From: Tenacibaculum sp. 190524A02b
GTDB lineage: Bacteria; Bacteroidota; Bacteroidia; Flavobacteriales; Flavobacteriaceae
Direction: 5' to 3'
Assembly (NCBI RefSeq): GCF_964036645.1
Contig: NZ_OZ038525.1
Span: forward strand, 4,592,001 to 4,656,000
DNA length: 64,000 bases
Shown in pieces: positions 5,245 through 15,617 of the stretch; within the stretch, counting starts at the first letter, position 1; every line of letters starts with the position of its first letter. The notes below the pieces were generated by a model that was not told the origin of the DNA, searched no databases, and saw only the letters and a list, made by a program, of their open reading frames with translations. The position numbers and the translations under genes are program-made.

Positions 5245-6819
5245 TTAAGATTTAACAGCAACAATTTCAATGAGAGGATTATTTTTAGCCCACTCCTTTT
5301 TTGAGTTGCTAACTCGGTATACAAAATTTCTAAAATATTCAAAGTGAGGGTCATTTTGTTTAGGGATATTTTTAAACCTTGATTTCCATAAATCAATAGT
5401 AGGTAAAGATTCCATTCTTCTATTTTTTAAATGTTTTATTTTCCAACCTGCCTTGGTTAAAATATCTACAAGCAAATCAGAAGAAATAACTTTCATAGTG
5501 TTGCCAAAAACCAAATTAGAAGTATTGGTATTCTGACAATGCGTTCTGATAATTAACTGATCGGAAAAATATCGTAAGTTTTTCAATAATTGATATTTAT
5601 TGTGAATATGTTCTAAGCTTTCCATCATTAAAAGAGTATCAAAATATCCTGGAGGAAGGGTATTCTCAATATTACCAAGCCGGGTTTGAATACCAATATC
5701 ATTACAATATTTAAACTGAGTTTTTGAAAGTGTTATCCCTGTAACTTTATTAGCATTTTTTTCAGTTAATAATTTAGCAGGACCACCCCAGCCGCAGCCC
5801 ATATCATATATAGAGCTTCCAGAAGGAATAAATTTAAAAAGGGTTTCTATAGCATTATCAAAGGCAGTATTGTTTTTTAAATTAGGAACATTATTATTTT
5901 CAGTAAACAACCCGAAATGATAGTGCATATTTTTTCCTAAAACTTTTTTCCAATATTCAACTCCATCTGTAGAATAAAAATCACTGAGATAGGTATTGTT
6001 TCCAGGGAGGTTAGTAATGGTCTTATCTAATATTCCTTGCTTAATATATTTATGTAAAGTTTTGGTATGGTTATTTGCTGTTTTTTTTGCGTAATTAAGA
6101 TTAGATAGCTCTTTAAGTTGCATTTTTCCAGAGAAGTAAACGGTTAAATGCGGGTTGTTTTCATCTCTATTAAAAGCAAGATGTTTAAAATGAAAGTTTT
6201 TGTATTGTTTTATCAAAAGGTCATTTTTATTAAAGTTAGAAAATAAAGAAAGTGAATTAAAAATTTCACTAAGCTTGGGTTGCCATGGATAAGAAATACA
6301 AATTTGATTGTAAGTTTGTCGATGTTCTCTTAACCAGAACCCTGCACTTTTTTTTAAGAGTGAGTTTTCATAAGCTTTGTAGTAAACTTTTAATAATCGA
6401 GTACTAACTAGGCTTTCTGGTTTAATTCCCTTAGGAGTTTCAGGGAAAAAGAAGAAGTGATATTGCTGCTTTTCAATTTTTTTAGAAGTATTCCATTGGT
6501 AAGCTTTGTATATATCCTTTAGGGTATTCTTTTCTAAATAATGAATATATAATACGTTACATTGATTTTCTTTGTTTGATATACCTAAACCAATATTAAC
6601 GGTTTTTTGAGCATGTTTTTTTTGAGTTTCAATAAGTTTTTCTGGACAATTAAGAACTTTTAAAATAGAAGGAATGTGTTTAAAAGTATTTTTTGGGAGC
6701 CATAATATGTATTTATCTCTAATGACTGTTTGATTAGCTTTTATTCTGATAGACCATTCATATGTTATTTCTTGATTAACATCTAGTAAAGAACTTATTG
6801 TACCAATAACTCGTTGCAT
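5245..6819 (-). CDS. SAM-dependent methyltransferase (CFA-synthase-like) with unknown N-terminal region
   Basis: 524 residues in two parts. Residues ~290-524 are a class I SAM methyltransferase: motif I is IYDMGCGWGG (337-346), followed by VTGITLSKTQ, a pattern close to cyclopropane-fatty-acid synthase-like methyltransferases, and by MMESLEHI. Residues 1-285 match nothing I recognise; they are mixed alpha/beta with many aromatic residues and no signal peptide. The gene follows, after a terminator, the operon with the Nif11-like and large mosaic proteins, so it may modify a lipid, a small molecule or a peptide linked to that locus (inference). The ATG is at 6819. Confidence 0.7.
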   Translation of the reverse strand: MQRVIGTISSLLDVNQEITYEWSIRIKANQTVIRDKYILWLPKNTFKHIPSILKVLNCPEKLIETQKKHAQKTVNIGLGISNKENQCNVLYIHYLEKNTLKDIYKAYQWNTSKKIEKQQYHFFFFPETPKGIKPESLVSTRLLKVYYKAYENSLLKKSAGFWLREHRQTYNQICISYPWQPKLSEIFNSLSLFSNFNKNDLLIKQYKNFHFKHLAFNRDENNPHLTVYFSGKMQLKELSNLNYAKKTANNHTKTLHKYIKQGILDKTITNLPGNNTYLSDFYSTDGVEYWKKVLGKNMHYHFGLFTENNNVPNLKNNTAFDNAIETLFKFIPSGSSIYDMGCGWGGPAKLLTEKNANKVTGITLSKTQFKYCNDIGIQTRLGNIENTLPPGYFDTLLMMESLEHIHNKYQLLKNLRYFSDQLIIRTHCQNTNTSNLVFGNTMKVISSDLLVDILTKAGWKIKHLKNRRMESLPTIDLWKSRFKNIPKQNDPHFEYFRNFVYRVSNSKKEWAKNNPLIEIVAVKS

Positions 6820-6852: not shown

Positions 6853-6892
6853 AGAGGTTGAATTTTCGTATCATAACTAGTATTCAACCTCT
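6853..6892 (-). terminator. Intrinsic terminator after the Nif11-like gene
   Basis: Inverted repeat AGAGGTTGAAT (6853-6863) and ATTCAACCTCT (6882-6892), an 11-bp perfect stem with an 18-base loop. On the minus strand it is followed at once by a run of T. It lies 11 bases past the stop of the Nif11-like gene and 33 bases before the methyltransferase start, so the methyltransferase needs its own promoter or read-through. Confidence 0.75.
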
Positions 6893-6903: not shown

Positions 6904-7146
6904 TTAAGAATTAAACCATTGTTTAAGTTGTGAATCTTGTGCTATAATAGCTTCTATAGTTTCAGGATTAATTTGTTTTACAATAGATTGGGCTTCCTCA
7001 GCTGTAAAGCAAAACCCTTTATTGGTAGCCCATTTAACAACAGTATTCCAATTACCTGGTGAAATTAAAGCGAGTTCAGGGCCAAATTTTTCCCAATTTT
7101 GATCGGTTGCTAAAAAATGAATTAGGTTTTCAAAATTATTTTCCAT
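6904..7146 (-). CDS. Small Nif11-domain-like protein
   Basis: 80 residues from the ATG at 7146; a longer frame from a TTG at 7164 would overlap the upstream gene and is less likely. The sequence pattern, a helix (NLIHFLATDQNWEKF), then VVKWATNKGFCFTAEEAQSIV, resembles the Nif11 fold: an aliphatic helix, 'a-xxGf-ft-eE', and another helix. Nif11 domains occur in nitrogen-fixation-linked proteins and as leader regions of ribosomal peptide natural products. Here there is no Gly-Gly cleavage site and no Cys/Ser/Thr-rich core, so it is not an evident precursor. It lies 11 bases after the 868-residue protein gene, as last gene of that unit. Confidence 0.6.
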   Translation of the reverse strand: MENNFENLIHFLATDQNWEKFGPELALISPGNWNTVVKWATNKGFCFTAEEAQSIVKQINPETIEAIIAQDSQLKQWFNS

Positions 7147-7157
7147 ATTGTTTCTAT

Positions 7158-9764
7158 TTACCAATGAGACGGATTCATTACTTTTTTTACTTTATCCCAG
7201 GTATCTTTAGCAAAAGAAGCAAAATCACCACCTAAAGATTCAAAGGCATTTTTAATTTCATTAACTGAATAACCAACACCTTGCAAGACATCATTGATAG
7301 CTGATGCACTTAAATTAAAAGCACTTTGAAGTGCTGTGGCTATAGCACCAATAGGATACCCCAATGTTCGTAAAACACTTGCTACATCACTATCAGAAAA
7401 TCCTAAACTACCAAAAATAGAAGCAATTTCGTTAGCTCCAGCTCCATATATTGATTGTAGTGCAGAACCAATTTCTTGAATACCATAACCAGCACCATGC
7501 ATAATAGATGCAGCTTCAGAAGCAGTCTTTTTAAAGGCTTGCTTTAACCCTTTCGCAACATCTTCAACTCCATGAATAATGGCATTTTTAACATAGCCAG
7601 CCCATTTACTGGCATCCTCAATAAAATCTTTAAAAATTGAACTAGCATCACTAATAATTTCATGCTCTATAGCAGATAATAAACTAGAGATACTTGAAAT
7701 ATTTACATCTGCATTAAAAGGACCGAAGCTTAATTTAGCACTATCAAATTCAAAGCCTCCTCCAACAGAAAAAATAAGATCAGAAGTAGAAGTAGAAATA
7801 CCTAAATTTACATCACAATCAGCGTTTAAATCAATTTTACCTAGACTGAAACCTGCAATTGAAGGCAAAGGAATGTCAATGTCTATTCCATAAGTAAAGC
7901 TACCAGAAAAGTTATGGTAATCTTTTAATGTACAAGACATAGAGGTTTGTAATACAGCTCCATAATCTAACTCAAAAGAAATTCCACTTTTACTAATTGT
8001 TGCATCAATTTTTTCATTTACTAAATCGAGTAAACTAATAGCAGCATCTAAAGTAAAGTAAGGAGAAGAAGAAGTACTGATGCTCATTTCTGGACCACCA
8101 GATGTTATTAATGTAGCTGTAGTAGCATTTTTAATAGCCTTTTGTGCTTCAGCAGTTTTAGGAATGGTATTATTTGGAACAGGTTGCCCATTAATTTCTT
8201 TAATAGTTACTCCTTTTCCGTCTCCAGAAATAGATAATAAACTACCAAAAGATAATTTATTCATGGTAATAGTACCATGTATACCGGTATTCATATCTAT
8301 TTGTAAATACCCGTAGAATTTGAGTCCAAAAAGATCCATAAACCCACTAAAACCATATCCCATTGGAGCTAAAGAACCATCAGGTAAAACTACAGGTTCC
8401 ATCGGGTTTTCTGCCCATCGGAAAGACAATTGTTCAAAAGTAACAGGGAAATCTAATGAAGTACTAGTGTTTGTAAAAATAGTAATAACTTCATCAAGAT
8501 TTAGTTTAGGAACATAAAAAGCAAAATATAAAGGATTCGGAACTTCTTCTTCCATTTCACATACAATAGCAAAACTATCATCTGTTAAAGTTACCTGACC
8601 TTGGTTTCCAATATGAAATGTTCCTTCAAGACCAATAGCAAACCCAGGAGGTTCAAAAATTAGTCCCATACCAACACCAAAAGAATCAAAGTGCAAACCT
8701 TTAACTACTGGAGGCGTTAATAAGCTAGTGGTATTTCCTTGTAAATCTACCCCAATTTCAGCTTCAATATTGTCAATAGTCATGGCAATATTAGCGTCAA
8801 TAGTAGGGCTTTTAAATATGTTAAAAGGAATGGTTGCCTTAACTTCAAATATTACAAATTTAAATAAAGGATTTAGTGTAAGTAGTAAAGTTGGTTTATC
8901 AATATCAAACGTTTTACCATCGCTTATAGGAATTTTAATATTATCTAAGCTAAATATTAAACAAGTCATTCCAGTTGATAAACCACCATTATAAATAAAC
9001 TCTATTTTAAAATCTACAGTTGTATTTGGTAAAAATGATTGGATATGCTCTAAAACACCTGTGTCGAAGGTTACATCATTAATATTTAACTGCCCTCCAA
9101 CCCTAATAGCTTCATTAGTTTCTGAACAATTAATATGTGATAAAGTGATGTCAGGAATGCTTGAAGGCCAATCAAAGCCCATATAGGTAGCTAAAGTGCT
9201 TAAGCTATAGGTTTGTTCTTGCGGTGGTTTATTACGTGTTTTAGGTGTTCTAGCTAAAGCAACAACAGCAAGCATATAAGAAATAAAGGTAACGTTTTTA
9301 TAGTCTGTTGTACTTTCAAAAAAAGCATTCACCTTTTCTGCAGAAGACTGTCCATTTTTTATCAATTTTTGAAATTGAATAACTTCTGCATTCGTGGGAC
9401 TATTTTGTATTAATTTCAAAAAATCCTGCGTTGAATTCATTATAGTAACCTCATCTTGGGTTATAGTATATGTTTCTGATTGCATTCCCATAGAGAAAAC
9501 CCGAGTAATTGGGGCGTATTCTTCATCAAAAATGATATAGGTTGATATAGGTCCATGAATAGGAGTGAACTCATTGCTAGCACCAGCTTTAATTGTTGTA
9601 ATACTGGTTAGGGTACCAAAAAAATTGGTTAAGCTCTTATCGGTAGCGTCATTTTGAAAAGCATCATAAACAACAATATCTTTTGTTAACGTATTTTTAA
9701 TCGTTATGGGAAAAAAAGACGTCGTGGTATTGTTGGTAGTTTGCAAGGTGGTTGTATTGCTCAT
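7158..9764 (-). CDS. Large mosaic protein with shared N-domain, beta-rich middle and C-terminal helical repeats
   Basis: 868 residues, not assigned to a named family. Residues ~17-180 resemble residues 22-185 of the product of 11006-12697: ITIKNTL..DIVVYDAF, AGASNEF..IHG and KVNAFFE.T are shared landmarks. Residues ~180-700 look beta-rich with many Ile/Asn/Phe-alternating strands. Residues ~755-850 are amphipathic helical repeats of the pattern 'aLqsxfg.sA.eiasil.g.GYs..eIa', at least three copies, ending in a charged helix. There is no signal peptide, lipobox or type IX secretion tail. It is 11 bases after the 341-residue gene. A toxin, surface or storage role is possible; none is shown. Confidence 0.7.
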   Translation of the reverse strand: MSNTTTLQTTNNTTTSFFPITIKNTLTKDIVVYDAFQNDATDKSLTNFFGTLTSITTIKAGASNEFTPIHGPISTYIIFDEEYAPITRVFSMGMQSETYTITQDEVTIMNSTQDFLKLIQNSPTNAEVIQFQKLIKNGQSSAEKVNAFFESTTDYKNVTFISYMLAVVALARTPKTRNKPPQEQTYSLSTLATYMGFDWPSSIPDITLSHINCSETNEAIRVGGQLNINDVTFDTGVLEHIQSFLPNTTVDFKIEFIYNGGLSTGMTCLIFSLDNIKIPISDGKTFDIDKPTLLLTLNPLFKFVIFEVKATIPFNIFKSPTIDANIAMTIDNIEAEIGVDLQGNTTSLLTPPVVKGLHFDSFGVGMGLIFEPPGFAIGLEGTFHIGNQGQVTLTDDSFAIVCEMEEEVPNPLYFAFYVPKLNLDEVITIFTNTSTSLDFPVTFEQLSFRWAENPMEPVVLPDGSLAPMGYGFSGFMDLFGLKFYGYLQIDMNTGIHGTITMNKLSFGSLLSISGDGKGVTIKEINGQPVPNNTIPKTAEAQKAIKNATTATLITSGGPEMSISTSSSPYFTLDAAISLLDLVNEKIDATISKSGISFELDYGAVLQTSMSCTLKDYHNFSGSFTYGIDIDIPLPSIAGFSLGKIDLNADCDVNLGISTSTSDLIFSVGGGFEFDSAKLSFGPFNADVNISSISSLLSAIEHEIISDASSIFKDFIEDASKWAGYVKNAIIHGVEDVAKGLKQAFKKTASEAASIMHGAGYGIQEIGSALQSIYGAGANEIASIFGSLGFSDSDVASVLRTLGYPIGAIATALQSAFNLSASAINDVLQGVGYSVNEIKNAFESLGGDFASFAKDTWDKVKKVMNPSHW

Positions 9765-9775
9765 AATTCAATTTT

Positions 9776-10801
9776 TTAAATAGCTTCTGTTTCTTCTAAA
9801 CCAATACTTTGTTCATATTGATCAAGAGTATCTGCATTTTCAGCAGCTTCATATTCGGAAGTAATACCTTCAAAAGTTTGCGCATCTGTAACAGCAGTGT
9901 CAATAGCGGTTTGTGAGCTATTAAACTGAGTTTCCATTCGCTCATAATAACTACTTTGAAGTTCTGAAGAAGCGGCATTAAGAGCAGTTTTTGCTGTAGC
10001 TAATTCAGCAATTGCATTTTGCACTCCAGTGCCAGAACTTAAAGCATCTTCTGCTTGTGTTACTTTAGAAACATAGTCAGAATAACTTTTATTAAATTGT
10101 TCTGTAGGAACCATACCTTCATCAGTAATTTGTTCCTGAATTACCTCAATCAATTTACTTGCATCTTCTAAGCTATCACTTAAGGCTGTTTTAGTAGGTG
10201 CCGTCTCTATGTTTTTTATTTTGGTAACTTGATTTTTTAAAACCTTTAATAAATCGTCGTCGTCAATTTCGTCAAAAGGCTTTTTTACAATACCGCTAAC
10301 TACATTTTTTAAAGTTTCAGAAAGAGTTGCTTCAGAGGAATCAGCACCTGTTATGATACCTCCTTTACCATTAATAAGTGTATTGTTTGCAATTAAACTT
10401 AAGTGTGTGTTGGTAATTCCTTCTGGAAGATTAGGGTTGTCTGAAACAGCATTCCCAAAATGAGGTTTTGTAGTACCTAATGTCATATCAACAACACTTG
10501 CTCCAATGGAAGGTTCTGTATCCATAGGCTCTCCTTTTACTAATAATTGTTTGGTTTCTGGATCAATTGTAAAATCTGAGTCAGGATATTTTGCTTGTTC
10601 CTCAATAAAATCAATATCAGAAAAACCAACGGCTCTATCTTCATTGTAAATAACCCTAGGCTGTCCAGTAGATTCTTCTCTTCCTAGTTCTAAACGGATT
10701 CTTACTAGTTTTTTTGAAACAGTGTCATATTGATAATAAGATGATAGTTTTTCTTCTTCTGAAGCTTCGCTTTCTGGGGTAGTATTCCATGTAATAATCA
10801 T
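9776..10801 (-). CDS. Acidic coiled-coil-like protein sharing its C-terminal domain with the 563-residue neighbour
   Basis: 341 residues, very acidic. The first ~110 residues look globular; residues ~215-320 are a long Ala/Gln/Ser/Glu-rich helical region that resembles residues ~440-540 of the product of 11006-12697. Shared landmarks are Q.Q..D.G..PTE, followed by SD, a LS.G....A block, TA...N, and a final YE. No signal peptide, no catalytic motif and no membrane helix are seen. It begins a three-gene unit (10801 to 6904) with 11-base gaps to the next genes. Its role is unknown; a structural or adaptor partner of the other two mosaic proteins is an inference. Confidence 0.65.
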   Translation of the reverse strand: MIITWNTTPESEASEEEKLSSYYQYDTVSKKLVRIRLELGREESTGQPRVIYNEDRAVGFSDIDFIEEQAKYPDSDFTIDPETKQLLVKGEPMDTEPSIGASVVDMTLGTTKPHFGNAVSDNPNLPEGITNTHLSLIANNTLINGKGGIITGADSSEATLSETLKNVVSGIVKKPFDEIDDDDLLKVLKNQVTKIKNIETAPTKTALSDSLEDASKLIEVIQEQITDEGMVPTEQFNKSYSDYVSKVTQAEDALSSGTGVQNAIAELATAKTALNAASSELQSSYYERMETQFNSSQTAIDTAVTDAQTFEGITSEYEAAENADTLDQYEQSIGLEETEAI

Positions 10802-10929
10802 AATATAATGTTTTAAATTGGTTTGTATAAATGTTTTGAGAAAAGGGAAAAAGTATTGTGGATTGCCAATATTAATAAGTAACTAGGTATTATAGTAAGT
10901 TACGTATTGATATAAGGATCATATAAATA

Positions 10930-10957
10930 CTCTTGGGCTTATATTATAGCCCAAGAG
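10930..10957 (-). terminator. Intrinsic terminator between two mosaic-protein genes
   Basis: CTCTTGGGCT (10930-10939) and AGCCCAAGAG (10948-10957) form a perfect 10-bp stem with an 8-base loop; the minus-strand tail is T-rich. It lies 49 bases past the stop of the 563-residue gene, so that gene and the unit starting at 10801 are probably separate transcripts. The right flank is also T-rich, so it may act in both directions. Confidence 0.7.
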
Positions 10958-11005
10958 GTATTTTAAAGTCTTAAGCTTTTATTGTTTCGGGGTACCATTC
11001 TAAAA

Positions 11006-12697
11006 TTAAAACTCCATTTCATCAGCAGATGGCCAATCGTCATCTTCAGAGTCATACCCAGAATCATCAGATGAGTTAGACATATCAGATTCATAATCTT
11101 CTTGAGCTGTATCCAAAGCTTCAGATTCATCAGCGGCATCACTAACAGCTTCAGAAGATTGTTTTAAAGAAGAAGTTTCCCATTCTGCCATTGATTCACT
11201 ACTTTCTTCAAGTGTATGATTAATTTTTTCAGAAGCAGTACTCATGGTATCACTTGCTTCAGAAAGATTACCGTTATCAATATCGGAAAGGGCGTCTTTA
11301 AAAGATTCATTTAAATCACTCACAGCTTCTTCATAATTTTCTGTAGGTGTATAGCCATCTTCTAATTGTTGTTGCATTTCACTTTGAATATCACTCATAG
11401 TATCTTCCATAGTCTGTTTCATTACATCTTCTTGAAGCGCGGTTGAGGTTTCAGAATATACCGAAGCTAAATCAGAGGAATCCGATGTAAATGTTGCTTC
11501 TGAGTTACTAGCTTCAGAAACAACAGTAGCATCTGGTGTTGAATTGATAGAAGCTTCTTCTGTATTGAATTCTTTTTCAGAAGAGGCTGATTCTTTTTTA
11601 CTAGTTATTTTTTCCTTAGCAGAAGAGAATATTTTTTTAGCAAAATCTCCTAGCATTAATAATCCAACCAATAAACCAACTCCTTGGCAAATTTTACCAA
11701 AAGAAGCATCAAAAGATGATTGTTTGTTTTTATTAGCAGGTTTATCAGGTATTTGACGTGCTGTTTGTGATGATACTACCTCTTTACCAGCTACAGTTCC
11801 TGTAACAGTAGGCCCTGCTAAATAACTAGAACTTGGTACGCCGTTTTTCATAGTGGTTTGAATTACATTCATCCAGACAGGCGTTAAGCTAACAGAAACA
11901 TCAGATCCAGGATCACTATCTCCCATGGTTCCATCACCATTCATTATAATTTGTGTGGTTTGAGGGTTACTAGGGTATATTGGATTGCCTTTTGAATCTT
12001 CAGAACAAATTTTTAAAGTAGCTGATTGCCCTGATTCAGTTGATGTAATATTCATAGTAGCAACTAAGGCAGGAATATAACCTGTTGGAGCAGGATTAGG
12101 AGCCTTTTCATATAAGTAATAAGGACCTTGCCAAGGTGAAGTAAACATCTGGAGATATGTTAAAATGGCATTCCATGAACTTAAAGTACAAGAGCTAAAG
12201 TTTTTTGTTCCACTAAAAAAAGCATTTACATCATCAACACTTCCTTTTTTTAGTGAAGCATATAAGTTTTTAGTCAAGGCTGAGTTTGGATTTGCCATAG
12301 CATATCGATGAAAAAGGAAAGATTGTACCATAGCGTCTTCATCAGAAGATGCGATTGTAAATTCTAAAGGAGGAGGATTTCCAAAAGAAAATTGTACAGC
12401 AGCCATTACTTTAATAGGAAATTGATAGAAATAAAAATCATTTAATTTTTTAAAGTTCCCAGTGTGCATTGCTTGTAATTGAGAAGCTTGATGAATGGTT
12501 TGGATTTCACTAGTAGCACCAGCGGCAATAGTGCCTAATTTGGTGTATTGATAAGGAAGTTTTTGGGTACCACTACTTGGGTTAAAAACATCGTAAATAG
12601 CAATGGTATAAGATAAGTTGTTAGTGATTTTTACTGTGGGATTCGTTGAGTTTGAATCACTACTAGTAGTTGCTGAGACAATTGTGTTTGTGTCCAT
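11006..12697 (-). CDS. Mosaic protein: shared N-domain, one hydrophobic helix, acidic helical C-domain
   Basis: 563 residues, not assigned to a named family. Residues 22-185 resemble the N-terminus of the 868-residue protein (VKITNNLSYTIAIYDVF, AGATSEIQTIH, DDVNAFFSGTKNF). Residues 336-351 (ICQGVGLLVGLLMLG) form the only strongly hydrophobic helix, followed by a Lys-rich stretch. Residues ~375-563 are Ser/Glu/Asp-rich and helical; 440-540 resemble the C-domain of the 341-residue neighbour. The last 25 residues are extremely acidic. No signal peptide. The protein therefore joins in one chain the two domains found singly in its neighbours, which argues for a shared assembly. Function unknown. 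Confidence 0.7.
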   Translation of the reverse strand: MDTNTIVSATTSSDSNSTNPTVKITNNLSYTIAIYDVFNPSSGTQKLPYQYTKLGTIAAGATSEIQTIHQASQLQAMHTGNFKKLNDFYFYQFPIKVMAAVQFSFGNPPPLEFTIASSDEDAMVQSFLFHRYAMANPNSALTKNLYASLKKGSVDDVNAFFSGTKNFSSCTLSSWNAILTYLQMFTSPWQGPYYLYEKAPNPAPTGYIPALVATMNITSTESGQSATLKICSEDSKGNPIYPSNPQTTQIIMNGDGTMGDSDPGSDVSVSLTPVWMNVIQTTMKNGVPSSSYLAGPTVTGTVAGKEVVSSQTARQIPDKPANKNKQSSFDASFGKICQGVGLLVGLLMLGDFAKKIFSSAKEKITSKKESASSEKEFNTEEASINSTPDATVVSEASNSEATFTSDSSDLASVYSETSTALQEDVMKQTMEDTMSDIQSEMQQQLEDGYTPTENYEEAVSDLNESFKDALSDIDNGNLSEASDTMSTASEKINHTLEESSESMAEWETSSLKQSSEAVSDAADESEALDTAQEDYESDMSNSSDDSGYDSEDDDWPSADEMEF

Positions 12698-13128: not shown

Positions 13129-13250
13129 TGTACAATAAAAATATTTTTTATTTTTAGCATTGTACAAAAGTGTACAAGAAAATAAAACATTATTTAGAAA
13201 GTTGTACACTACTGTACAAAAAAATAAAAAACTTTAAAAAAAATTGTACA
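13129..13250. promoter_or_regulatory. Phased array of six TGTACA palindromes (42-bp repeat unit)
   Basis: TGTACA occurs at 13129, 13161, 13171, 13203, 13213 and 13245. The start-to-start spacings are 32, 10, 32, 10 and 32, so the pattern is a 42-bp unit carrying two sites 10 bp apart. All sites lie on nearly the same face of the helix (one and three turns). The unit between sites is A/T-rich. The array ends four bases before the ATG at 13254 and a degenerate unit continues into the gene. This looks like an operator array for the HTH-like protein it precedes; that link is inference. Confidence 0.6.
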
Positions 13251-13253
13251 AAC

Positions 13254-13760
13254 ATGTTGAAAGAAATAAAAAAGCACTTAAAAGTAAATAATACCCTATT
13301 GGCATTATATGCAGAGACATCTGTTGACTTTATAAACTCTATAACAGTAGGAAGAAGAACATTTTCTATAAAAATTATAAACACACTGTTACCGTTGTTT
13401 GAATCGTTGGAGATGGGTAAAACAGTGCAAGAATTAAAACTGTCAAAAAATTTAAGAAAAGAAATTAATCAGAAAAGGGACTATACAGCAGTTGTAAAAA
13501 AGTTAGACAGAAGAATTAGAAATGGGCAAGAACAAATTGAAAAGGATACCCTAATAATAGAGAGTTACTTACGTGGGATGCATGCTTGTGAACAACTATT
13601 ACAGAATACTAACAATTTAAAAGAGCATCAAATAAAATGGTTGCAGTTGCGGGAAAAACACTTAGCACAAAAGTATGCTGCTAAGCAACAAGAAAGTTAT
13701 ATGCTGCAAGCAGAAATAGCAGCAAAAAAAGCAAAGAGGGAGTTTTTATTAAATTATTAA
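13254..13760 (+). CDS. Small HTH-like protein with basic coiled-coil tail
   Basis: 168 residues from the ATG at 13254. The frame is open further up to a GTG at 13170, but that start lies inside the TGTACA array and would only add 14-residue repeats encoded by the 42-bp units, so I prefer 13254. Residues ~1-55 (KKHLKVNNTLLALYAETS...GRR.FS..IINTLLPLFESL) look like a divergent XRE-type helix-turn-helix as found in small Bacteroidota regulators. The rest is a Lys/Gln-rich helical region. It overlaps the convergent phosphoesterase gene by four bases. A DNA-binding autoregulator is likely but the HTH is weak. Confidence 0.55.
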   Translation: MLKEIKKHLKVNNTLLALYAETSVDFINSITVGRRTFSIKIINTLLPLFESLEMGKTVQELKLSKNLRKEINQKRDYTAVVKKLDRRIRNGQEQIEKDTLIIESYLRGMHACEQLLQNTNNLKEHQIKWLQLREKHLAQKYAAKQQESYMLQAEIAAKKAKREFLLNY

Positions 13761-14431
13761 GGTTTATTCAAGTTACTTTTCCTTACTCTTCCTTGATTAT
13801 TAGTTTGAATATAGTCTTTAGTTTCTACATTCAAGCAAGTCAGCCATTTTCCACCATAAGCATAAGTGTCAATACAAATCGTATGTCCAAAATTAGCGAT
13901 CTGTCCATTTTTTCTAGAAGTGTGCCCGCAAATAACAGTTTTACCTTCCATATACTTTTCTGGACGTTCAAATTTTTTCCAGAATAAATGATGTTTGTTT
14001 TGTTGAGATAAACTTTTTTTAAGTTCTAAACCAGCATGTACAAAAATAAAGTTGTTGAGTTCAAAGTAGGGGAGGCAGTTATCTATAAAATTCCAATGTG
14101 AAGAGGTAATTTTATCAGCCCAATTTACATCATTTCCAATTTTATAAGAACTTAAAGTATTTGAACCGCCAAAGTAAAGCCATTCAGAAAGTCTTTCTGA
14201 CGATACTTTAGCAGTTTGCATCATTATTTCATGATTGCCAAGAATAAACTTAAAATTGTAATTATTCTGGTTTTGTATTAGCCAATCAATAACTTCTTTA
14301 CTATTAGGACCACGGTCAATATAGTCACCCAAAAAAACTACAGTATCCTTTTCTTGGATTATGAATTGATTAAATATAGTTTTTAAAGCAGTATAACAAC
14401 CATGAATATCACCAATAGCGTAAGTAGCCAT
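13757..14431 (-). CDS. Calcineurin-like metallophosphoesterase (serine/threonine phosphatase-like)
   Basis: 224 residues with the full set of metal-site motifs of the PPP/ApaH-like phosphoesterases in order: GDIHGC near residue 7, GDYIDRG near 36, GNHE near 65, VHAGL near 113 and GHTS near 169. These bind two metal ions and hydrolyse phosphomonoesters, either on proteins or on small molecules such as Ap4A. The length fits the bacterial PrpA/PrpB-type phosphatases. It ends in a 4-base convergent overlap with the HTH-like gene and starts 4 bases past the stop of the PLP enzyme gene, so it probably shares that transcript. Substrate not determinable. Confidence 0.85.
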   Translation of the reverse strand: MATYAIGDIHGCYTALKTIFNQFIIQEKDTVVFLGDYIDRGPNSKEVIDWLIQNQNNYNFKFILGNHEIMMQTAKVSSERLSEWLYFGGSNTLSSYKIGNDVNWADKITSSHWNFIDNCLPYFELNNFIFVHAGLELKKSLSQQNKHHLFWKKFERPEKYMEGKTVICGHTSRKNGQIANFGHTICIDTYAYGGKWLTCLNVETKDYIQTNNQGRVRKSNLNKP

Positions 14432-14435
14432 AAAT

Positions 14436-15617
14436 TTATAGGTGTTCTAAATTCGCATTCAAATCATTAATTAAATCTTCTGCGGCTTCCAGTCCAATAG
14501 AAATACGCATATCACCTAAATTAATACCTAAACCTTTAAATTGCTCTTCAGTTAGTTCTTTTAAATAACTAATAGCAGGTGCGTAAATTAAACTTTCATG
14601 ACCACCCCAACTAACTCCAATTTGGAATAAAGAAAGTCCGTTGAAAAAGGCTTTAATTTTATCCAAATCATCCGTGTTTAATTGAAAACTTAGTAAGCCA
14701 CTATAACCAGACATCTGTTTTTGTCCTAATTCATATTGAGGAAAGCTTTCTAACCCAGGGTAATTTACCTTTCTTACTTTTGGATGTTTTTCTAAAAATT
14801 GTGCTACTTTCAAGGTAGATTTTTGGTGTTGATCCATTCTAATTTTTAGGGTACGTAAACTTCTTAATAATAACCAAGCCTCAAAAGGTGCTATTTTTGC
14901 TCCAAATAATTCAAATTCGTGTACAAATAAGTTGTTAATGTTTTTTTCTGAACCAATAACCACACCAGCAACCACATCACTATGTCCTCCAATGTATTTT
15001 GAACAAGAGTGAATTTCAAAATCAACACCCATGGCCAATGGTTTTTGATAAATAGGAGAAGCCCAAGTATTGTCTATTATAGTTTTAATACCCTTTGGTT
15101 TGGCAATTTTAGCAACGGCTTCAATATCTTGTAAACTTAAGATAACAGAAGAAGGACTTTCTAAATAAATTAAAGAAGTATTATCTTGAATAGCATTTTC
15201 AAACTCACTTATTTCAGTACCAGAAATATAAGTAACTTCAATTTCAAACTTCTCTTTTAAGTAACGTTGTAAAAACGTATTAGTTGGGCCATAAATATTT
15301 TTAATAGTAATAACGTGCGATCCTTTTTTTATACAAGAAAGAATAGTAGCACTAATGGCACCCATACCTGATGAAAATAATTTAGCTTTTTCACCACCAC
15401 AAATAGCAGCTAGTTTATCTTCAACAATGCGAACAGATGGGTTGTTCCCACGTGTATAAATATAGTTATTTACTCTATCATCAAATGTTCTGTCAACATC
15501 ATCCCAATCTTTCATAGTAAATAACGAATTTTGATAAATAGGTGGAACTACAGCTCCTTTACTATGCGCTTTTTTACCATCGTGAGAAAGTATGGTTTCT
15601 ATGTTAGATTTTTTCAT
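14436..15617 (-). CDS. Cys/Met metabolism PLP-dependent enzyme (cystathionine/methionine gamma-lyase type)
   Basis: 393 residues from the ATG at 15617; a longer frame upstream only adds residues within the nhaC end. The family landmarks are present: the TRGNNPSVRIVEDKLA segment near the N-terminus, the SSGMGAI loop that binds PLP phosphate, and SCSKYIGGHSDVVAG with the Schiff-base Lys. The family breaks or exchanges the C-S bond of cystathionine, homocysteine or methionine. Which reaction it does cannot be told from these motifs. It overlaps the end of nhaC by 14 bases, so the two are translationally coupled. Confidence 0.85.
   Translation of the reverse strand: MKKSNIETILSHDGKKAHSKGAVVPPIYQNSLFTMKDWDDVDRTFDDRVNNYIYTRGNNPSVRIVEDKLAAICGGEKAKLFSSGMGAISATILSCIKKGSHVITIKNIYGPTNTFLQRYLKEKFEIEVTYISGTEISEFENAIQDNTSLIYLESPSSVILSLQDIEAVAKIAKPKGIKTIIDNTWASPIYQKPLAMGVDFEIHSCSKYIGGHSDVVAGVVIGSEKNINNLFVHEFELFGAKIAPFEAWLLLRSLRTLKIRMDQHQKSTLKVAQFLEKHPKVRKVNYPGLESFPQYELGQKQMSGYSGLLSFQLNTDDLDKIKAFFNGLSLFQIGVSWGGHESLIYAPAISYLKELTEEQFKGLGINLGDMRISIGLEAAEDLINDLNANLEHL

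Follow-up and report, generated by a model that had tools for sequence, protein, structure and literature searches.

Gene Content of the Locus

The window analyzed here is a 64-kb stretch of Tenacibaculum sp. 190524A02b (contig NZ_OZ038525.1, positions 4,592,001 to 4,656,000), and coordinates without a locus name are positions within it. It contains a conserved, apparently undescribed operon of four genes, which encode three large proteins (p563, p341, and p868) and p524, an enzyme with a predicted prenyltransferase fold. The three open reading frames (ORFs) of 868, 341, and 563 amino acids named in the original prediction were confirmed at their coordinates, all on the minus strand. The unit is larger than the interval given there, which held these three only. 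It also includes the prenyltransferase gene (5245-6819), found at all seven loci with the three genes, and a Nif11-like gene, p86 (6904-7146), found at two of the seven. The features of the operon are as follows.

11006..12697, minus strand: p563, first gene; ORF of 563 amino acids
12152..12676, minus strand: N-domain of p563, common to p868 (hhalign, own-genome profile match, and controls)
11084..11383, minus strand: acidic helical C-domain of p563, common to p341 (hhalign E 1.5e-9 and controls)
10930..10957, minus strand: hairpin of 10 pairs within the 204 bp that separate p563 from p341 (116-nt stretch folded, z -3.15)
9776..10801, minus strand: p341, second gene; 341 amino acids, with a conserved N-terminal part (MIITW...YYQYDT...RIRLELGR) and a helical C-domain
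7158..9764, minus strand: p868, third gene; ORF of 868 amino acids
7158..7175, minus strand: C-terminal tail of p868, NPSHW and the stop codon; proposed prenylation site
6904..7146, minus strand: p86, small gene; 80 amino acids from an ATG, in an ORF opening with TTG at 7164; weakly similar to Nif11 leaders
6853..6892, minus strand: terminator-like hairpin and T-run (by eye) in the gap between p86 and the prenyltransferase gene (84-nt stretch folded, z -3.21)
5245..6819, minus strand: p524, fourth gene; putative prenyltransferase-methyltransferase fusion
6034..6819, minus strand: predicted PT-barrel (ABBA) prenyltransferase domain of p524
5245..6033, minus strand: CMAS-like S-adenosylmethionine (SAM) methyltransferase domain, C-terminal in p524 (PF02353, E 4.1e-11)

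Domain Composition of p563, p341, and p868

The p563 protein is composed of an N-domain that may resemble the beta domain of the von Hippel-Lindau (VHL) protein (residues 8-182, assigned by homology to the p868 N-domain), a middle part of no evident fold, a hydrophobic segment (residues 331-349), and the acidic helical C-domain. The p868 protein has a putatively VHL-beta-like N-domain, a beta-rich middle that is not reliably modeled, short-helix repeats, and a Trp-containing tail.

In single-sequence BLASTP, p868 and p563 matched with an E-value of 3e-4, p341 and p563 with 0.019, and p868 and p341 with 0.11 at best. Profiles were then built from 7-8 orthologues of each protein and compared in pairs by hhalign. 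Residues 6-170 of p868 aligned with residues 8-182 of p563 (probability 98.3, E 1.8e-14), and residues 219-320 of p341 aligned with residues 439-538 of p563 (probability 96.3, E 1.5e-9). The p868 and p341 profiles showed no similarity to each other (probability 0.5). Within its own genome, the p868 profile retrieved, besides p868, nothing but the p563 N-domain (E 3.6e-13) at E <= 0.001; for the p341 profile, at E <= 10, the one hit other than p341 was the p563 C-domain (E 2.2e-6).

Controls consisted of 1,328-1,499 scored shuffles per test, plus reversed sequences. With the domain profiles, the partner domains scored 14.4-58.8 bits, the best shuffle in each test scored 3.9-11.0 bits, and the best reversed sequence scored 5.2 bits. 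The narrowest margin was that of the p563 C-domain profile on p341, where the lowest real score was 14.4 bits and the best shuffle 9.8 bits. Both shared domains claimed in the original prediction, the N-domain of p563 and p868 and the acidic helical C-domain of p563 and p341, thus stand, with all controls lower. The domain mosaic is real.

None of p868, p341, and p563 has its most hydrophobic 19-residue stretch anywhere near the N-terminus; in p563 it is at residues 331-349, with a Kyte-Doolittle value of 1.64. None of the three proteins has a Pfam or NCBIfam match above cut-off, and each is named here as a protein family. Matches to PADLOC models were set aside: those of p341 to REase_II (E 2.4e-4), of p563 to DndD, ZorA, and PDC-S06 (E 0.013 and weaker), and of p524 to mad2 (E 6.9e-7) all lie in helical or methyltransferase stretches.

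Fold of the p524 N-Terminal Domain

The prenyltransferase-fold gene, missed in the original prediction, is the key of the operon. Described as a plain methyltransferase, its product would be correctly named in the C-terminal half only. The model of the 262-residue N-terminal domain (pLDDT confidence score 81) is a barrel of ten antiparallel strands paired into five hairpins, with helices around it; the strands are at residues 17-27, 31-41, 73-80, 88-95, 102-109, 115-124, 160-166, 169-176, 210-217, and 224-234. This is the architecture described for the PT-barrel (PMC3227686). All 50 structural matches listed for the p524 domain are ABBA/PT-barrel prenyltransferases, including the peptide-modifying PagF, LimF, KgpF, and PatF, and the match extends over the whole domain. 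Glu21, Arg34, Lys36, His93, Tyr120, and Tyr228 are invariant and are placed on barrel strands in the model.

Pfam, NCBIfam, and the PDB sequences fail to recognize the domain. Sequence similarity between groups of the PT-barrel fold is low (PMC13290415). The PT-barrel fold of the domain is well supported by the model, and p524 is predicted from it to transfer a prenyl group. The methyltransferase fusion is present in the window only; the six relatives of p524 lack the methyltransferase domain. Matches within the enzyme family to TapY2 (three of seven members, best E 0.014) and TerL_ATPase (two of seven, best E 0.061) are below threshold and were taken as chance.

Distribution and Gene Order

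Orthologues were collected by one p868 scan of genome contigs, which reaches close relatives only and gave seven loci. Six of them carry the triad, in Aquimarina acroporae (L002), Chryseobacterium takakiae (L003), Flavobacteriaceae RhTr2 (L004), an uncultured Alteromonadaceae bin (L005), A. spongiae (L006), and C. gregarium (L007); the other is in Dyadobacter (L008). The order p563-p341-p868-prenyltransferase is kept at all seven triad loci, the window and these six. The original suggestion that the three proteins are parts of one system therefore stands as far as adjacency and constant order (7 of 7 loci) are concerned, but p868-like proteins also occur in other bacteria without p563 and p341, and p868 can therefore exist apart from the other two. 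The search for p341 covered its own genome and the collected loci, where it always accompanied p563 and p868.

The operon is rare. p563 was found in one of 395 genomes of the class and one of 299 of the family, in both cases its own genome. p868 matched 3 of the 395 class genomes and 3 of the 299 family genomes, at full length only in its own. For the prenyltransferase, where only the best first-look candidates among the 395 class genomes were scored, a full match was present only in its own genome, and two others were marginal and short (E about 0.007). No p563 was found in viral contigs or on plasmids, and no prenyltransferase was found on plasmids with the L004 member as query. In the family of Dyadobacter, p868-like proteins are present in 2 of 96 genomes, Dyadobacter itself included.

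The window p868 is 54-69% identical to the other six. Together with the patchy set of carriers (Flavobacteriaceae, Weeksellaceae, and the Alteromonadaceae bin), these identities suggest horizontal spread. The G+C content of the operon exceeds that of its flanks by 1.0-4.8 points at all seven loci, which neither proves nor excludes transfer. At L004, recombinase-like genes (1251-2477 and 13361-15025, read by eye from translations) flank the operon on both sides and are a hint of mobility. The second of these overlaps a tRNA-Leu call (13368-13453). A DUF1842 gene lies directly upstream of p563 in the Aquimarina loci only (L002:6747-7157, PF08896, E 1e-18; L006:6762-7172, 77% identical).

Protein p329 in Dyadobacter

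The Dyadobacter locus (L008) has a p868 relative and three p563-like genes, no p341, and no detected relative of the prenyltransferase. The gene directly after p868 there encodes another protein, p329. The whole cluster (L008:2774-15279) comprises three p563-like paralogues, the p868-like gene, p329, a GH19-like gene (sub-threshold, E 4.5e-4), and a gene with a weak likeness to PLC-X.

Relatives of p329 were found in four plasmid records (E 2e-10 to 0.04; L041:9863-11014, L042:7706-9326, L043:7686-9479, and L044:6648-8477), near genes of the type found with ribosomally synthesized and post-translationally modified peptides (RiPPs). The Nostoc relative is near Nif11- and NHLP-peptide-like ORFs and the Azospirillum relative near NHLP-like ORFs, both read by eye in unannotated records. 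The Acaryochloris relative adjoins three further genes: a Nif11-like leader and a RiPP maturation radical SAM C-methyltransferase, both annotated as such, and a SAM methyltransferase that has a CMAS match too. The Pseudanabaena relative is fused to a 2-oxoglutarate-Fe(II) (2OG-Fe(II)) oxygenase domain and is near annotated LanM and Nif11 genes. In Acaryochloris, the methyltransferase ORF begins with a stretch similar to the end of the p329 relative from Nostoc, which looks as though both were formerly a single reading frame. The position behind p868 is thus filled by RiPP-associated proteins of two unrelated kinds, and this favors modification of an operon product.

p868-like Proteins Outside the Triad Loci

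A tblastn search of plasmids gave nine records with partial p868 matches, from Deinococcus, Paenibacillus, Priestia, Hymenobacter, Azospirillum, Herpetosiphon, and Mycetohabitans. By partial matches, the p868-like family spans five phyla and lies beside many different enzymes. Thirteen non-triad loci were read (L008, seven of the nine plasmid records, and loci of five further genomes). Seven of them (L008, L019, L020, L021, L023, L049, and L050) have a degradative or transferase gene no more than two co-directional genes away from the p868-like gene, a count that has no random-gene control. The neighbor is an annotated S8 peptidase at L019, a nuclease at L020 and L023 (annotated at L023), and a GH108 gene followed by a SLATT-domain protein at L021. 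The CHAP-like (L050) and PLC-X-like (L008, E 0.075) neighbors are matches below cut-off. At L049, the gene directly upstream (L049:11938-12867) carries a DXD glycosyltransferase motif domain (PF04488, E 7.2e-7). No such gene is that close at L022, L024 (only a DUF3238 gene), L025, L046, or L047, and at L048 a nuclease-like gene is further off. The p868-like proteins may have a role in antagonism or delivery.

The Deinococcus protein (L025:8690-10573) scores above the Pfam threshold of a UBA-type domain (PF24899, 36.4 bits for the whole protein, in no single stretch), so the short-helix repeats may be UBA-like. p868 was also considered as a phage tape measure and rejected. All 12 PHROG rows (best E 1.5e-4) fall in the helical-repeat residues 685-865, and no p868 relative was present in 50,697 phage records or in viral contigs. 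The p868 model gave no E below 0.001 against a viral fold library, with residues 259-695 at pLDDT under 50, so this result does not bear on the middle of the protein. A possible resemblance to DUF6603 was not confirmed (no Pfam match and no paper found).

Intergenic Hairpins and Flanking Sequence

A terminator-like hairpin with a T-run (by eye) precedes the enzyme gene at four of the seven loci (L003, L004, L007, and the window; z -3.2 to -5.0). Larger and weaker hairpins precede it at L002 and L006 (z -2.5 and -1.9), and the p868-p86 gap of L005 was not folded. In the p563-p341 gap, stable hairpins are also present at L003 and L007 (z -3.2 and -5.2), and L005 does not stand out (z -0.3). A pattern scan of the window listed 5 terminator-like sites against 4.0 expected, which is no excess; it allowed loops of up to 8 bases, and the hairpin at 6853..6892, with a longer loop, is not among them. 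The hairpins before the enzyme gene fit an arrangement of abundant proteins and a scarce enzyme, and no more than that.

Upstream of the operon is a 196-amino-acid ORF (13170-13760, plus strand) without an above-threshold Pfam match. At its 3' end it shares 4 bases with the end of a phosphoesterase gene. The phosphoesterase was not found in four same-genus genomes at E <= 1e-20, which is uninformative on an empty site. No tRNA is present in the window, and promoter-like sites between 4500 and 13300 show no excess (41 against 41.2 in shuffles).

Proposed Mechanism and Alternatives

The explanation that we tentatively favor, although it falls somewhat short of probable, is that the operon encodes a three-protein assembly together with its own lipid-attaching enzyme, and that lipidation of p868 makes the assembly membrane-bound. 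Because it has the same predicted beta-sandwich N-domain as p868 and the same acidic C-domain as p341, p563 would bridge the other two. The PT-barrel enzyme would most likely attach a prenyl group to the Trp- and His-containing C-terminus of p868, and this group would serve as a lipid anchor. The hydrophobic segment of p563 could likewise enter the membrane. In the window, the fused CMAS-like methyltransferase is a candidate for adding a methyl group to the prenyl chain or to the modified end. The hairpins before the enzyme gene (four of seven loci) would leave less of the enzyme than of the proteins it modifies. Once complete, the assembly would work at a membrane, either that of the cell itself or that of a competitor. 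Prenyl transfer, the p868 tail as substrate, and membrane action enter this scheme by inference.

A Trp is present within the last 8 residues in all eight p868 proteins encoded beside the enzyme or p329 and in three of twelve p868-like proteins without either (counted by eye from the tails), and the p value of 0.0013 is only indicative, being overstated because the eight cases are related. Absence of the enzyme for the twelve refers to the plasmid records (not the chromosomes), to four genomes (G566, G430, G210, and G176), and for L046 to a 20-kb stretch only; G566 has a short enzyme match (E 0.009). The tail has the form NPS[HN]W in the window, L005, and L008, and [ST]HWD[HS]W in the other five. 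In the tree of the p868 body, the window groups with L004, L003, and L007 (99/99), and in the enzyme tree it groups with L005 (92/97), on long branches and at a fork that is not starred. Given this conflict, the tail form and p86 follow the enzyme. The identity of the window p868 to that of L004 drops from about residue 740 on.

Several points weigh against lipidation of p868. The relatedness of the eight tails and the long enzyme branches of the window and L005, with their unstarred fork, weaken the statistics and the covariation, and block exchange of the adjacent 3' end can equally explain the covariation of tail and enzyme, in line with the drop in identity to L004 from about residue 740. 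Trp is near the end of the p868-like proteins of L019, L022, and L050, where no enzyme was detected, and L008 has the tail and not this enzyme. The idea that p329 is a second PT-barrel enzyme found no support in profile comparison, which gave no similarity to the prenyltransferase (one such comparison used three of five family members, leaving out those of Acaryochloris and Azospirillum). No sequence method links the enzyme to known prenyltransferases. Foldseek gave no E below 0.001, with four prenyltransferase rows followed by unrelated barrels and phosphorylases, and a common fold does not prove activity. The middle of p868 is without a reliable model. p86 could be the real substrate at two loci, and a precursor without conservation may exist at the other five. 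The tail counts, the tree pattern, and the block-transfer alternative together leave the p868 tail a plausible, if not quite probable, substrate.

In one alternative, the enzyme tailors a RiPP or metabolite, acting on p86, an unseen peptide, or a small molecule, and the large proteins form an export, storage, or target assembly. Secondary metabolism is where PT-barrel enzymes were described (PMC3227686), and RiPP pathways also use them (PMC13290415). p86 accompanies the enzyme type of the window and L005; its only relative seen is in L005, where the p86 and enzyme genes are 2 bases apart. Both proteins weakly match Nif11-type models, each in one library and below cut-off (p86, TIGR03798, 15.2 bits against 32.3, E 0.019; the L005 relative, PF07862, 15.4 bits against 23.8, E 0.024). 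A Gly-Gly site is usual in Nif11-type leaders, and p86 ends without one. The search for shared small ORFs covered those of 20-150 codons up to 1.5 kb from the operons and is blind to precursors that are not conserved. Several, including the DUF1842 gene, are common to the two Aquimarina loci and otherwise only p86 is shared, between the window and L005; it is absent from five of the seven loci. Outside one genus pair, five of the seven loci have no small ORF in common, and a conserved small precursor therefore does not serve as a general explanation. This alternative is unlikely.

In another explanation, the enzyme is cargo: p868-like proteins would form a delivery or antagonism system with a varying neighbor enzyme, here a prenyltransferase(-methyltransferase) acting on the target cell. 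The degradative and transferase neighbors at 7 of 13 non-triad loci agree with this. However, that frequency is uncontrolled, two of the seven matches are below threshold, and six of the 13 loci have no such gene that close. The enzyme is also constant, not variable, over the seven triad loci, and no sign of secretion was seen in the window, which makes the cargo explanation quite improbable. That the barrel is a scaffold or binds another ligand within an intracellular structure agrees with the lack of any convincing sequence match to an enzyme family, support for activity coming from fold and residue conservation, but is likewise improbable given six invariant residues that fit a working pocket and a CMAS-like fusion that would fit isoprenoid chemistry.

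Comparison with Known Systems

In the papers cited here (PMC3227686, PMC13290415, PMC9609003, PMC7253389), the last two of which treat peptide and aromatic prenyltransferases, the substrates of PT-barrel enzymes are small aromatic metabolites or peptides. Peptide and protein prenyltransferases have been classed as eukaryotic, cyanobactin, and trans-IDS-like (PMC13290415). No PT-barrel enzyme linked to such large proteins was found among the titles and abstract beginnings listed in searches of open-license papers.

The cyanobactin F-family enzymes PagF, LimF, KgpF, and PatF are structural matches of the p524 domain, but at 8-13% identity. Cyanobactin clusters contain A/G-type proteases and a short precursor beside the F-type enzyme. 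At the loci described here, a small ORF shared between genera is present only in the window and L005. Unlike the cyanobactin enzymes, the prenyltransferase domain is unrecognized by NCBIfam and Pfam, is encoded beside three large proteins, and at five of seven loci has no small ORF conserved beyond the genus. For the N-domain of p868 and p563, the candidate counterpart is the beta domain of the VHL protein.

p524 resembles NctPC and AgeMTPT in being a prenyltransferase fused to a second enzyme. AgeMTPT is reportedly a methyltransferase-prenyltransferase fusion. p524 differs from both in that its second domain is CMAS-like, C-terminal, and without counterpart in six of seven relatives. NctPC is a low-similarity PT-barrel enzyme fused to a cyclase and directed to Trp (PMC13290415). 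PalQ and ComQ prenylate Trp, as proposed here for p524, but are related to isoprenyl diphosphate synthases and not to PT-barrels (PMC13290415). PalQ is selective for C-terminal Trp (PMC10853753).

If the proposal is right, there is a likeness to eukaryotic CaaX processing, with a large protein lipidated at its C-terminus and, in the window, a methyltransferase at hand. The folds and target residues differ, and no membership is implied. In its fullest form, the comparison would be to a CaaX-like bacterial lipidation built from different parts, in which a PT-barrel enzyme acts on the tail of an 868-residue protein, methylation follows in some lineages, and a membrane-acting machine with two partners spreads as a rare operon; as a whole this is rather unlikely. 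Dedicated attachment of a lipid to a large protein would, if true, be unusual in bacteria, and the constant link of the enzyme to three large proteins offers a testable case for such lipidation by a PT-barrel fold.

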